Assembly (NCBI GenBank): GCA_022843745.1
Contig: JALHNB010000061.1
Coordinates: forward strand, 1-39,769
Length of the DNA: 39,769 bases
Direction: 5' to 3'
From: Anaerolineae bacterium
GTDB taxonomy: Bacteria; Chloroflexota; Anaerolineae; Aggregatilineales; Phototrophicaceae
Shown: positions 2 to 3,534 of the stretch, piece after piece
Position numbering within the stretch: the first letter of the stretch is position 1
Layout of the letters: every line of letters begins with the position of its first letter
Notes under the pieces: generated by a model
What the model was told of the DNA's origin: nothing
Databases searched by the model: none
The model's input: only the letters and a program-made list of their open reading frames with translations
Program-made: the position numbers and the translations under genes

Positions 2-544
2 CTAGGGGATAGCTGGTGCAGGCGGCAGCAGCGACAGCGAAAGAATAATCATGAAAATAAAAGCCAGTAATGCGCTGGCGAAAATGGCAGTTTTTTGTGC
101 CTTCGAAATTGGCATCATCTCCATCGCTGAACTGGGTGGCTGTAACCCGACATGAATTTCAACCGATGAAACCTCGCGATTTTTGATTTGCCACGCAGCC
201 ATACGCGGTGTGCCATCGCGCAGCCCAACAATGATATAAGCGGTATCAGGATAATATGCCTGCTCAATATCGGTTGTGGAGGGTCTGAAATCACCGGCTG
301 GATGTGAGTGATAGAAGGCGATGATTGACATTCCGGCTTTTTCGAGCTTGAACAAGGCATTCGTTAAATCGCGCTCATCAATCTGATAATGCTGTTGAGG
401 ATTCCCGGCAATATTTCGCGCGGGGATGACTTCATAAACACGGCTGCCGACCCCGCCGATGATCCCGCAGGCTTCGTTGGGTGAGTCCGCCAGTGCATGT
501 CGGACGATGATTTGTGCCTGTTCTTCGGTCATCCAGATCATCAT
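2..544 (-). CDS. Tail-anchored JAMM/MPN (M67-like) metalloprotease-domain protein
   Basis: The 180-residue product carries a full JAMM zinc motif: Glu24 in the segment NEACGIIGG, then H79-S-H81-P with Ser89 and Asp92 in RPSTTD. Proteins of this family cleave isopeptide or peptide bonds next to ubiquitin-like or sulfur-carrier proteins. After the catalytic domain (about residues 1-125) a linker leads to one hydrophobic helix near residues 152-174 and a short Pro-rich end, so the enzyme looks anchored by its C-terminus with the domain in the cytoplasm. No sulfur-carrier or cysteine synthase gene sits next to it. It is the last gene of a leftward cluster, 35 bases after the small conserved gene. 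Starts at 544, 541 or 532 are all possible; 532 (MTEEQ) begins at the conserved domain. The family call is firm; the substrate is unknown. Confidence 0.85.
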   Translation of the reverse strand: MMIWMTEEQAQIIVRHALADSPNEACGIIGGVGSRVYEVIPARNIAGNPQQHYQIDERDLTNALFKLEKAGMSIIAFYHSHPAGDFRPSTTDIEQAYYPDTAYIIVGLRDGTPRMAAWQIKNREVSSVEIHVGLQPPSSAMEMMPISKAQKTAIFASALLAFIFMIILSLSLLPPAPAIP

Positions 545-579: not shown

Positions 580-933
580 TTATGCTTTGGGGACAGTAAA
601 AGTTTCAACCAGCCGATCCTGGGGTGGATTCCGAGTCTCATAAAACAGATCGGTTGTCAGCGTATAAACCCCCGCTGGGTCTTGCACGTTGCGGATGTGC
701 AAAGTGAACTCCATATCATAGTGCATGGTTTCGATGACATTTAATTCGCTGACGATGCGGTCTTCTTCGTTATGCGCCACGATCAGCAGATTAGGCCGTT
801 CCTGAAAAGGTGTCACCTGGATATGAATATGGACGCGAAAACGGTCAGGATAGGGCGTGATGACCACATCTTCGATGCGAATTTCGTCTTTGGGTCTCGG
901 TACTTTGTCAGAAGGAAATAGCGGTATGTCCAT
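580..933 (-). CDS. Conserved hypothetical protein, beta-rich
   Basis: A 117-residue soluble protein with no signal peptide or membrane segment. I do not recognise a named family. The pattern of alternating hydrophobic residues (for example RFRVHIHIQV and YTLTTDLFYE) suggests an all-beta, immunoglobulin-like sandwich; the phrase DPAGVYTLTTDL is typical of such folds. It lies between the ACT gene and the JAMM gene, same strand, with short gaps, so it is probably co-transcribed with them. No catalytic motif is visible. Confidence 0.7.
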   Translation of the reverse strand: MDIPLFPSDKVPRPKDEIRIEDVVITPYPDRFRVHIHIQVTPFQERPNLLIVAHNEEDRIVSELNVIETMHYDMEFTLHIRNVQDPAGVYTLTTDLFYETRNPPQDRLVETFTVPKA

Positions 934-973: not shown

Positions 974-1408
974 TTAACTATTCGTCTTAAGTTTTTCCAG
1001 TGTGGTGATTGCGAGGTTGAAATTTTCTTCGGTCACAAACAGATGGTCACGGGTGTAAGCGGCGAAAGGGAGGATGCTGATGCCCGCGTCCGCCAGTGCC
1101 TTGCTGATATGTGCCATAAAGCCGACAAGATCGGGTTCGAGCGCCACGTCAATCGTAATCAGGCGGTAACGTTGGGGACTGAGCGTGCTGCCGGGAAGCC
1201 GTTTGGCAAAATCATCCCAGGCTTCCGCCGGGATCATCAATGTCACTTCGTCTTTATCAACCAGCAGAGCACCAAAAGGCTCACCAATTTCCGCGATGAC
1301 ACCTGCCGCTGCCATGATCGCCGCCGCTGGTAATCGTGCGAAGGCATAGGGCTGACCGTCACTGTAAAATGATGCCGCGCTCAAGGCCTGCTTAACAGTT
1401 TGGGACAT
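974..1408 (-). CDS. ACT-domain protein (ACT_7/CASTOR-like)
   Basis: A 144-residue protein. The C-terminal half (about 83-141) has the ACT pattern, with PDLVGFMAHISKALADAGIS followed by a strand, as in free-standing ACT_7 proteins that bind amino acids. The N-terminal half (about 20-75) carries GEPFGALLVDKDEVTLMIP, the segment that usually precedes this ACT type. ACT domains sense small ligands, most often amino acids, and normally dimerise. It lies 10 bases downstream of the SerK/SbnI-like gene, so a shared link to serine metabolism is attractive but inferred. The start is ATG at 1408. Confidence 0.82.
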   Translation of the reverse strand: MSQTVKQALSAASFYSDGQPYAFARLPAAAIMAAAGVIAEIGEPFGALLVDKDEVTLMIPAEAWDDFAKRLPGSTLSPQRYRLITIDVALEPDLVGFMAHISKALADAGISILPFAAYTRDHLFVTEENFNLAITTLEKLKTNS

Positions 1409-1418
1409 GTTTAGCCTT

Positions 1419-2243
1419 TCATTCGTCGAATTGGTAGGTTGATTCGGCGTAGAACCGAACAGCTCGATTGGCCAGTTTATGTTCCAGCCAGGTGCGCAGT
1501 TCTTGGTTTTTAACGTCTAAATGGGTATTCTGGGCGCGCAATAGGGCAATCGGGTAATTCACGCGCAGCGCACGTCCATAAACGACATGACGGCTGACAC
1601 CCGCTGGCAAATAGGCTTTGTGACGGGCGGCGTTAATGATGTCCACAGGCTCATAACGCGGGAAAATGACGAGTGCAAACGCATCCTCATACAGCGGCCA
1701 GATTTCATCCGGCTCAGTGATTGTTGTGCGATTCAGACGCGCGTTTTTCTGGTAAATATGAACCACATCGCGAAGCGCGGCGTTGCGTTCGTGGGTGTTC
1801 TCAACAGGTGAGCGCAGGGCGATGACTTGTCCATCCTTGAGCAGGATATGAGCGATTGCGTGTATATTCTGGCCGTTTGAGATTTCGATGTCAGGTAGCT
1901 GTGCCACATGATCTAGAAAAATCTGGCTGTCCCAATCGCCGACAATGTGACACCATGTTTGCAGGTCAACAAGGCCGCTGTCGTAAGAAGCGATCTGCAC
2001 GAGAATATGCGGATAATTCAAATGCTGAAAGGCGTGGCAGCGATTCGCGCCGTCAAGAATGACATATTGACCGTCCCCCATTGGTGCGACTATGGGCGGA
2101 TTAATCATCGTTTCTTCTTGTTCGAGTCGTTCAATAAGCGGCAGGGAACGCTGCGAGTCGTGATCCTCATGGGCGTGCAGGCTACCCGTCGGTACGATGC
2201 GCAAGTCTGGAATGGGTGCGTGGTTGCGATCAGTTAACATCAT
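1419..2243 (-). CDS. ParB/Srx-fold protein of the SerK/SbnI (free serine kinase) type
   Basis: A 274-residue protein. The N-terminal 90 residues have the ParB/sulfiredoxin arrangement: LHAHE (His25-Glu26), a helix LIERLEQE, then NPPIVAP, VILDGANRCHAF (Asp64, Arg68) and HILVQIASY. In SerK and SbnI, enzymes that phosphorylate free L-serine with ADP or ATP, the equivalent His-Glu and DGxxR segments form the active site. The usual chromosome-partition ParB helix-turn-helix region is not apparent, and the C-terminal 180 residues resemble the long tail of the SbnI group. It is the first gene of the leftward cluster, followed by an ACT protein. Starts at 2243 and 2240 are adjacent ATGs. The fold is confident; the serine kinase activity is an inference. 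Confidence 0.72.
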   Translation of the reverse strand: MMLTDRNHAPIPDLRIVPTGSLHAHEDHDSQRSLPLIERLEQEETMINPPIVAPMGDGQYVILDGANRCHAFQHLNYPHILVQIASYDSGLVDLQTWCHIVGDWDSQIFLDHVAQLPDIEISNGQNIHAIAHILLKDGQVIALRSPVENTHERNAALRDVVHIYQKNARLNRTTITEPDEIWPLYEDAFALVIFPRYEPVDIINAARHKAYLPAGVSRHVVYGRALRVNYPIALLRAQNTHLDVKNQELRTWLEHKLANRAVRFYAESTYQFDE

Positions 2244-2293: not shown

Positions 2294-2806
2294 ATGGGCG
2301 CAAATGAACAAGGTGCAGATGTCACCGCCGGACGATGGCTGACCATTCCGCGAACGTTGTGTTTTGTGCGGAATGGCGGCGATATTTTGCTGATGAAACG
2401 CGCGGCGCATAAACGGGTATTTCCCAATCAATATAATGGTGTTGGTGGACATATTGAGCGCGATGAAGACCCTCTCAGCGGTGCGCGGCGCGAAGTTCTT
2501 GAAGAAACGGGTTTAACAATCGAGCAGCTTGAATTACGCGCTGTGTATAATATTGACGCTGGCGCTGTAACCGGAATTATTTTGTTTGTTTTTATCGGCG
2601 ATAGTTTATCGCGCGAGGTCGTCCCGAATTCTGAAGGGACGCTGCACTGGGTTGCGCGGGATGAGGTGGCAAAGCTCGATCTGGTGGAGGATTTGCCGCT
2701 GCTTTTGCCGCGTATTCTCGCGATGCAGCCGGGGGAAGCGCCCTTATTTGTGCATGTCAGTTACGATTCTAACGATCTAATACAAATGCGATTTGCCGAG
2801 GTTTAA
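2294..2806 (+). CDS. Nudix hydrolase
   Basis: A 170-residue Nudix protein with the full signature GX5EX7REUXEEXGU: Gly52, Glu58, then REVLEETGL at 66-74, which binds the metal and cleaves nucleoside diphosphate-type substrates. PNQYNGVGGHIERDED just before the box is typical of the MutT/8-oxo-dGTPase-like group (YNGxGGxxE), so a nucleotide-pool role is plausible but not proven. The start ATG at 2294 has TTGGGG about eight bases upstream. It diverges from the SerK-like gene over 50 bases, and its stop is immediately followed by the TTG start of the next gene, so the three rightward genes form one unit. Confidence 0.9.
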   Translation: MGANEQGADVTAGRWLTIPRTLCFVRNGGDILLMKRAAHKRVFPNQYNGVGGHIERDEDPLSGARREVLEETGLTIEQLELRAVYNIDAGAVTGIILFVFIGDSLSREVVPNSEGTLHWVARDEVAKLDLVEDLPLLLPRILAMQPGEAPLFVHVSYDSNDLIQMRFAEV

Positions 2807-3241
2807 TTGTCTGAAATTCAAAATGAATTGGTTCGGGAACAACAAGAAGTCGCGGTTACTCGCAAACCGCGTGGGCCATTGGCGCGTTTGGGCTGTGCAG
2901 TCGGGCTAGTGATTTGGGCAATTCTGATTTTGTCTCCCTGTATTCTCATCACTCTGGCGGCTCAGGGCGAAATTAATATCTCGACAGGCGATGCGCCAGA
3001 CCAACGCCTGCGCATCTGGCTCATTATGGAAGCGGCTCAGCGCGGGGTGGGCATTTCGAATGCGTCGATTCATAAGCAGGATAATGGTCAAACCTGTGTC
3101 CAGACGGATACGAGCTTTTTCTTGTGGCAGGGGCAGGCTGATTCGGTCAGCTACTGCGAGTGTTATCAGCATGAAGATGGTAGTCAGGATTGGGCGGCAA
3201 CAGGGCTGACACCGGGGCAGTGTGAGGCGGAATCACCATGA
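2807..3241 (+). CDS. Small single-pass membrane protein, unknown
   Basis: A 144-residue protein starting with TTG directly after the Nudix stop codon. It has a charged cytoplasmic N-terminus (about 1-27), one membrane helix near 28-52, and an extracytoplasmic domain of about 90 residues with four cysteines (in QTCVQ, YCECY and GQCEA), which could form disulfides outside the membrane. I do not recognise the family. Its TGA stop overlaps the next ATG as ATGA, so the two small membrane proteins are translationally coupled. Confidence 0.72.
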   Translation: MSEIQNELVREQQEVAVTRKPRGPLARLGCAVGLVIWAILILSPCILITLAAQGEINISTGDAPDQRLRIWLIMEAAQRGVGISNASIHKQDNGQTCVQTDTSFFLWQGQADSVSYCECYQHEDGSQDWAATGLTPGQCEAESP

Positions 3242-3534
3242 ACATTGATGCGGGAAGTGCGGTTCTGCTGGTAGTAGGATGTGCGGTTTTGTGTGTTGTC
3301 GGTTTCATCCTGCTTCAGGTATTACAATTTCTCGGCGGTATCCTGGAATTTCTTGGCTCGTTTTTGGCGATATTTTTTGACATTCTCAGCGGTGGGCCAG
3401 TATCGTGGTGTGGGTGTCTATTGGGATTAGTCGGATTAGCGGGCTGCTGCGTTGTGACCTTATTGATACTTCAGTCGCTATCGACTTGTGGAACAGCGCA
3501 GGCATCCAATTTTTGTACTTTATTTGGGCAATAA
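3238..3534 (+). CDS. Small hydrophobic membrane protein, unknown
   Basis: A 98-residue, almost wholly hydrophobic protein with two or three membrane segments (about 8-30, 33-50 and 61-80) and a Cys/Gly-rich stretch (WCGCLLG, GCCVVT) in the last third. No family recognised. It starts inside the stop of the preceding membrane protein (ATGA) and ends just before a hairpin repeat that separates it from the convergent ftsH gene. Confidence 0.62.
   Translation: MNIDAGSAVLLVVGCAVLCVVGFILLQVLQFLGGILEFLGSFLAIFFDILSGGPVSWCGCLLGLVGLAGCCVVTLLILQSLSTCGTAQASNFCTLFGQ

Follow-up and report, generated by a model that had tools for sequence, protein, structure and literature searches.

A putative free-serine kinase of SerK/SbnI type beside an ACT-domain protein in Anaerolineae

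Does a ParB-fold protein encoded at the left end of a 39,769-nucleotide stretch of Anaerolineae DNA (hereafter the window) phosphorylate free serine, and if so, for what use? Its gene (1419..2243, minus strand; 274 amino acids) opens a minus-strand row of four, continued by genes for an ACT_7 protein, a 117-residue protein and a Prok-JAB protein, after which the contig ends. Characterised free-serine kinases come from archaea and staphylococci, as far as the literature covered shows, and a 2016 report states that clear-cut SerK homologues were not found in bacteria (PMC5120207). No paper among the literature matches listed, which give partial coverage, describes such a serine kinase in Chloroflexota; a 2025 survey of ParB folds mentions SerK and SbnI, and its main text contains neither 'Chloroflex-' nor 'ACT domain' (PMC12704722). 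A broad bacterial clade would make serine phosphorylation a general alternative to CysE. We consider it very probable that the 274-residue protein is an enzyme of the SerK/SbnI superfamily, and on balance we favour the narrower reading that it is a free-serine kinase making O-phospho-L-serine (OPS) chiefly for cysteine-type synthesis.

Predicted fold and active-site residues

Two NCBIfam profiles matched the protein, both far below their equivalog cut-offs: SbnI (NF033589; E 6e-16, residues 13-271, 58.6 bits against a cut-off of 350) and SerK (NF053625; E 9e-7, residues 21-105, 28.3 bits against 380). By these scores, it belongs to neither equivalog. No ParB match was found in Pfam at E <= 1, where the sole match was sub-threshold and unrelated, and a profile of the C-terminal part of the SerK-like family retrieved SbnI, not SerK.

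The AlphaFold2 model (mean pLDDT 90.5, pTM 0.86; 60 aligned sequences) was compared with solved structures, as the earlier note had proposed, and showed the same fold as SerK and SbnI. The nine top rows of VIA-align were SbnI, SerK and P. furiosus 1vk1, with Z 20.6-22.4 over 217-248 residues of the predicted model; the next were Noc and ParB (Z 7.7) and sulfiredoxin (Z 6.9), and Foldseek gave the same outcome. The likeness to the staphylococcal OPS synthase SbnI (PDB 5ujd, 5uje, 6nr6) spans the whole chain (model residues 8-274; Z 22.0-22.4), whereas that to Thermococcus kodakarensis SerK (TK0378; PDB 5x0b-5x0k) covers model residues 4-236 (Z 20.6-21.3) and leaves the last 38 residues outside the alignment. 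The predicted model thus has the two-part SerK/SbnI fold, which extends beyond the ParB N-domain. The ParB, Noc and sulfiredoxin rows each cover no more than about 90 residues; past residue 100 the model follows SerK/SbnI, not the helix-turn-helix and dimerisation parts that come after the ParB N-domain in a partition protein. Genes of this sort tend to be annotated as coding for chromosome-partition proteins. A partition protein was nevertheless ruled out by the predicted fold and the missing ParB match, in agreement with the earlier note, which had denied the protein a partition-protein layout.

The His-Glu and DGxxR segments that the same note had singled out are present. In the HMMER alignments, with numbers counted from these alignments, E26 corresponds to E20 of SbnI and E30 of T. 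kodakarensis SerK, D64 to D58 and D69, and R68 to R62 and R73, and N67 stands where both enzymes have a His (H61 and H72). Among 96 relatives (an 80-locus set and 16 from further genomes), H25, E26, D29, R32, D64, G65, R68, W97, H99 and R218 were invariant, and the [ST]RH motif at 217-219 (S217-R218-H219 in the window protein) was kept in 90. We take this motif to be carried by SerK as well. The kinase activity of SbnI is reported to require both E20 and D58 (PMC9641203), and PDB titles include the SerK mutants E30A and E30Q. Misplacement of the active-site Glu and Asp relative to SerK had been named as grounds for rejecting the serine-kinase idea; both align with those of SerK, so that neither sequence nor predicted fold refutes it. 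The DGANR segment of the window protein differs from DGVHR of SbnI and DGHHR of SerK, and residue 67 was Asn in 92 of the 96 relatives, Thr in three and Lys in one. The alignments indicate that the clade retains the acidic pair and swaps one residue; N67 in place of the DGxHR His marks a separate clade, though we do not take it as defining.

On this evidence the protein would phosphorylate free L-serine and represent a third clade of the SerK/SbnI superfamily, centred on Chloroflexota. Phosphate would move from a nucleotide, either ATP or ADP, to serine, giving OPS, and E26 and D64 would be the acidic residues central to the reaction; the donor used by SerK is reported to be ADP (PMC5120207). 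For the window protein both the activity and the donor are inferred.

Two alternatives bear on this step. The same fold and chemistry might serve another substrate, such as homoserine, threonine or a serine derivative, a reading to which N67 and the identity of only 13-20% to the solved kinases lend some weight. Against this, the Glu/Asp pair and W97 are conserved, as is the PxGx[ST]R region, and the CBS-like and TrpB2-like enzymes encoded beside the gene in other loci (below) act on serine-type substrates, so we regard another substrate as improbable. Slightly less probable still is a nucleotide-binding regulator without enzymatic activity, a CTP or ATP switch in a regulatory complex with the ACT and Ig-like proteins. 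ParB-fold relatives are reported to bind various NTPs (PMC12704722), and EdeB, which has an SbnI-like N-terminus, to bind promoter DNA (PMC9641203); the binding of CTP but not ATP by a SerK-like archaeal protein, described in the same 2025 survey (PMC12704722), counts against the kinase reading. Against a mere switch, the model follows SbnI along residues 8-274 and SerK along 4-236, and the invariance of the Glu and Asp (96/96) is not expected of a regulator.

The four-gene cassette and the ACT protein

The earlier note had treated 974-2243 as a two-gene pair. Its coordinates, strand and spacing hold: the ACT gene (974..1408, minus strand; 144 amino acids) starts 10 bases after the stop of the SerK-like gene (2243-1419). 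Both genes are present, but the row continues with 933-580 and 544-2, and the pair is part of a larger cassette. The third gene (580..933, minus strand; 117 amino acids) encodes a predicted seven-strand Ig-like sandwich with no Pfam or NCBIfam match; its model is good, and the structural matches, to GH2-type sandwich domains, are little informative. The fourth (2..544, minus strand; Pfam PF14464, 74.5 bits) encodes a Prok-JAB protein whose JAMM motif (HSHPAGDFRPSTTD) is intact and which has a hydrophobic stretch at its C-terminal end. On the other side lies a divergent NUDIX hydrolase gene (2294..2806, plus strand; Pfam, 61.1 bits), used here as a synteny marker and for context only. Beyond it, the window has two small ORFs (2807-3534; 144 and 98 amino acids) with hydrophobic stretches, in an order found in many relatives. 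In relatives (L061, 3912-7055; L062, 4553-7745), the JAB gene is followed by a prepilin-peptidase-like gene and then by convergent MnmA-like and cysteine-desulfurase-like genes, all named from sequence; an A24 peptidase match was confirmed in a further locus, L267.

We surveyed 101 genomes, namely the host and 100 relatives. The SerK-like gene was found in 76 of them, with no internal stop among the matches listed, and the ACT gene in 79. Among these 76 genomes, 53 have an ACT gene on the same strand within 100 bases downstream of the SerK-like gene, 5 have it at a distance of 1.2 kb downstream and 4 have it elsewhere; in the remaining 14 it was not found. The recurrence of the SerK-like ORF without stops, and of an ACT gene within 100 bases downstream in 53/76, makes the arrangement more than a chance one.

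The ACT protein scored 53.5 bits against ACT_7 (PF13840), above the gathering cut-off of 27, and matched the VC0802 and CASTOR arginine sensors weakly (E about 3e-4). It is not an exclusive or dedicated partner of the SerK-like protein. In 17 genomes the ACT gene occurs without SerK, and in 15 of these the 117-residue gene lies on the same strand within about 1.4 kb of it (in the other two, G065 and G074, the 117-residue gene was not found). Four genomes (G004, G050, G057 and G060) retain the order NUDIX, ACT, 117-residue, JAB, with SerK alone missing from it. In the 80-locus set, counted by eye from tblastn matches at E 1e-4 and including several contigs that end early, the ACT gene was seen in 47 loci and the 117-residue gene in 53, and of the 33 loci in which no ACT gene was detected, 9 (for example L122, L123 and L128) keep the 117-residue gene beside SerK; the 117-residue gene is the steadiest neighbour of SerK in this set. 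The proposed pairing of the ParB-fold and ACT proteins consequently survives as adjacency in 53/76 genomes, but not as an exclusive bond, the ACT gene also staying with the 117-residue gene where SerK is missing (15/17). The ACT protein may tune the kinase in response to an amino acid, for instance cysteine or serine; this sensor role is a guess.

Genes for the supply and use of O-phosphoserine

Once made, OPS would be consumed by PLP-dependent beta-replacement enzymes. The likely user in the host is CysM, working with the sulfur carrier CysO, which MoeZ would charge and a JAB/Mec-type peptidase would release, to give cysteine. In mycobacteria, CysM, CysO, Mec and MoeZ are reported to make cysteine from OPS (PMC3227635), and the host has the corresponding gene set, in gene presence only: a CysM-like protein, a CysO-like protein with C-terminal GG, a JAB peptidase and a MoeZ-like protein. 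The CysM-like protein scored 344.7 bits against TIGR01136, just over the cut-off, and 376 against TIGR01138 (cut-off 394); the host has two more proteins of this kind, a CBS that passes its cut-off and a CysK-like protein that stays below the cut-offs. Contig 35 of the host (G000, L262, 2649-9977) carries a sulfur-assimilation-type row of JAB, rhodanese-type, MetY-like, MetX-like, CysO-like ThiS ending in GG, DUF4395-like, thioredoxin-like and MoeZ-like genes, of which JAB, ThiS and ThiF-rhodanese were confirmed and the rest named from sequence. In a relative (G067), CysM-like, JAB, ThiS, DUF4395-like, thioredoxin-like and ThiF-rhodanese genes form one row. The host differs from mycobacteria in adding a serine-kinase-like gene as a possible source of OPS, and its window JAB is a second paralogue, not the neighbour of CysO. 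Two JAB genes were found in the host genome, and the hydrophobic C-terminal stretch of the window JAB is absent from the one beside CysO, so that the former is possibly a membrane-anchored paralogue. The window JAB is the less likely Mec of the CysO route, since the other JAB sits in the CysO cluster.

A Lys near the putative OPS-recognition position was found in 45 of 45 aligned CysM-like proteins and was absent from 25 CysE-type CysK and five CBS-type rows; E. coli CysM has Arg there. These 45 come from 48 regions fetched from 79 genomes, three of which (L226, L239 and L249) gave no motif-bearing frame. The recognition position is taken from work on archaeal CysK (PMC5120207), its placement on the CysM-like proteins being made in this analysis, and C. 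jejuni CysM is reported to use only O-acetylserine (PMC9855970). The Lys is weak evidence for OPS use.

OPS could also arise in the host without a serine kinase, from 3-phosphoglycerate, given its SerA (512 bits) and a SerB-like HAD protein encoded 1.4 kb upstream (86.8 bits, below the cut-off of 144). T. kodakarensis is reported to have both routes, SerK and 3-phosphoglycerate (PMC5120207). SerB (TIGR00338) was over cut-off in 0/101 genomes and weakly matched in 101/101. The host further has an EpsC-type acetyltransferase-like gene on contig 63 (132.8 bits against a cut-off of 150), between DUF6492 and glycosyltransferase genes.

Co-occurrence points towards cysteine. Across the 101 genomes, SerK and CysM-like genes were found together in 66, SerK only in 10, CysM-like only in 13 and neither in 12 (p 6e-4; the 79 CysM-like genomes were chosen by bit score and frame length). 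CysE tends to be missing from both groups. With CysM-like genes the tally was 15 with both, 16 with CysE only, 64 with CysM-like only and 6 with neither (p 5e-6); with SerK, counting CysE over cut-off, it was 16 with both, 60 with SerK only, 15 with CysE only and 10 with neither (p 8e-4). In the 67 better genomes the corresponding SerK and CysE counts were 14, 38, 9 and 6 (p 0.03). A phylum-wide draw of 301 genomes, in which two draws were treated as the same genomes from equal tallies and handles, gave CysE (E <= 1e-50) in 2/21 genomes with SerK and in 143/280 without (p 1.6e-4, uncorrected for descent), or 2/21 against 104/280 for CysE over cut-off (p 0.009); among the same-class genomes listed, CysE was found in 1/10 with SerK and 11/20 without (p 0.02). 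The opposition between SerK and CysE weakens among close relatives, being non-significant within the host family (p 0.37) and among the relatives without the sister family f3 (p 0.12). CysE over cut-off is also lacking in 10 of the 25 SerK-negative relatives and, of the four genomes in which SerK alone is missing from the cassette, was found in G050 only.

Other Anaerolineae place further candidate users of OPS next to the gene. In eight loci, seven in one cluster and L171, the gene immediately upstream of SerK is CBS-like; of three tested by HMM, two (L140 and L142) score above the cystathionine beta-synthase cut-off, and the third, L150, matches in its C-terminal part only. Seven loci have a TrpB2-like gene downstream of SerK, six of them immediately downstream, and six carry a SerB-type gene on the opposite strand. 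Both TrpB2-like proteins tested (L149 and L151) and the one SerB tested (L149) passed their HMM cut-offs; in L157 some 4 kb, including other ORFs, separate the TrpB2-like gene from SerK. Neighbours were clustered from chosen ORFs, and in L124, L146, L151 and L171 some of the picks lie opposite to SerK. TrpB2 enzymes are reported to use OPS (PMC11917138, citing Busch 2014), and the OPS user of these sister lineages may be the cystathionine-beta-synthase-like enzyme or TrpB2. The TrpB2 loci group together in the tree (bootstrap not settled), whereas the CBS loci, among which L171 and L150 stand far apart from the others, require two changes; the CBS link may therefore be old. No CysM-, CBS- or TrpB2-like gene adjoins SerK in two host-family loci checked gene by gene, and in other lineages the neighbours had no evident link (RluA-type, M23 peptidase, prolyl-tRNA synthetase, esterase and M32 peptidase).

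A serine kinase could alternatively feed OPS elsewhere, returning serine carbon to 3-phosphoglycerate through reversed SerC and SerA or providing for the synthesis of tryptophan (TrpB2) or diaminopropionate, cysteine being a secondary use. In T. kodakarensis, SerK is reported to act in serine assimilation as well as in the synthesis of cysteine (PMC5120207). Of the 101 genomes, 99 gave a SerA match at E <= 1e-80 (70 of them over cut-off), and one lineage has TrpB2-like and SerB-type genes adjoining SerK. The positive link with CysM-like genes and the opposition to CysE, however, point to cysteine, and we consider these other ends unlikely as the main use, though the least unlikely of the alternatives weighed here. 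The flow of OPS chiefly into cysteine remains our preferred reading of the pathway-like genes and gene order. Of the serine-phosphate module that the earlier note had envisaged, the kinase half is supported by the predicted fold, both residues reported as essential, OPS-type enzymes adjoining the gene elsewhere and the phylum-wide opposition to CysE; the amino-acid-responsive half, with the ACT protein as a possible sensor, stays conjectural.

DUF1015 replacement and distribution across lineages

In all eight genomes of the sister family f3, SerK is absent and a DUF1015 gene (PF06245) lies directly upstream of the ACT gene, at the position that SerK holds in the host family. DUF1015 was found in 14/25 SerK-negative genomes and 3/76 SerK-positive ones (Fisher p 4e-8, uncorrected for descent). 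A functional link between SerK and the ACT protein stays plausible because the ACT gene still follows DUF1015 where the latter replaces SerK. HE and DGHHR motifs, the latter that of SerK itself, are invariant in 14/14 aligned DUF1015 proteins, taken from 17 loci after L277 (wrong frame) and L279 and L283 (overlong start) were left out; DUF1015 genes with both motifs were seen in L263, L264, L265, L270 and L271-L287. DUF1015 proteins differ from the SerK-like protein in their length (about 450 amino acids) and in the long stretch between their two motifs. An hhalign comparison of DUF1015 with the SerK-like family was not significant (probability 3.2%, E 0.014) and aligned around the DG motif only, and DUF1015 had no PDB sequence match. 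Judged by these motifs and positions, the exchange of DUF1015 for SerK is a lead, not proof. DUF1015 presumably also lies beside serA in some Firmicutes. CysE was found in 13 of the 17 DUF1015 genomes, so if DUF1015 is a serine kinase too, the simple idea that either route stands in for the other will have to be revised. In another locus, L266, an aminotransferase gene upstream of ACT was considered as SerC and rejected, its best matches being NifS/IscS cysteine desulfurases, below their cut-offs.

More speculatively, and with less than even prospects in our estimate, much of Chloroflexota may activate serine by phosphorylation instead of acetylation, with a DGANR-clade ParB-fold kinase feeding CysM/CysO, CBS-like enzymes or TrpB2 under ACT control and with DUF1015 as a second type of serine kinase in the same cassette. 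If so, predictions of cysteine auxotrophy based on the lack of a CysE route would often be wrong for uncultured Anaerolineae; Thermoflexus hugenholtzii, for one, has been predicted to be a cysteine auxotroph (PMC8129789), while a SerK-like gene is present in L150, from a metagenome-assembled genome titled Thermoflexales. The SerK-like gene offers a direct test of cysteine synthesis in Anaerolineae without serine acetyltransferase, and the cassette offers a testable function for the 117-residue family and for DUF1015, a family of unknown function seldom named in the literature covered.

No viral homologue of the SerK-like family or of the 117-residue protein was confirmed. Eight loci (L143, L149, L151, L152, L154, L155, L157 and L158) come from metagenome-assembled genomes (MAGs) titled beta proteobacterium, Betaproteobacteria or Comamonadaceae, and their SerK-like genes fall among Chloroflexota rows of the tree; the titles may be wrong. 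Records titled Bacteroidetes bacterium and Pleurocapsa minor (L099 and L120) carry SerK, ACT, 117-residue and JAB genes as in Chloroflexota and are probably contaminated or mislabelled bins. Most of the nearest records are MAGs with the titles Anaerolineae, Chloroflexi, Aggregatilineales or Phototrophicales.
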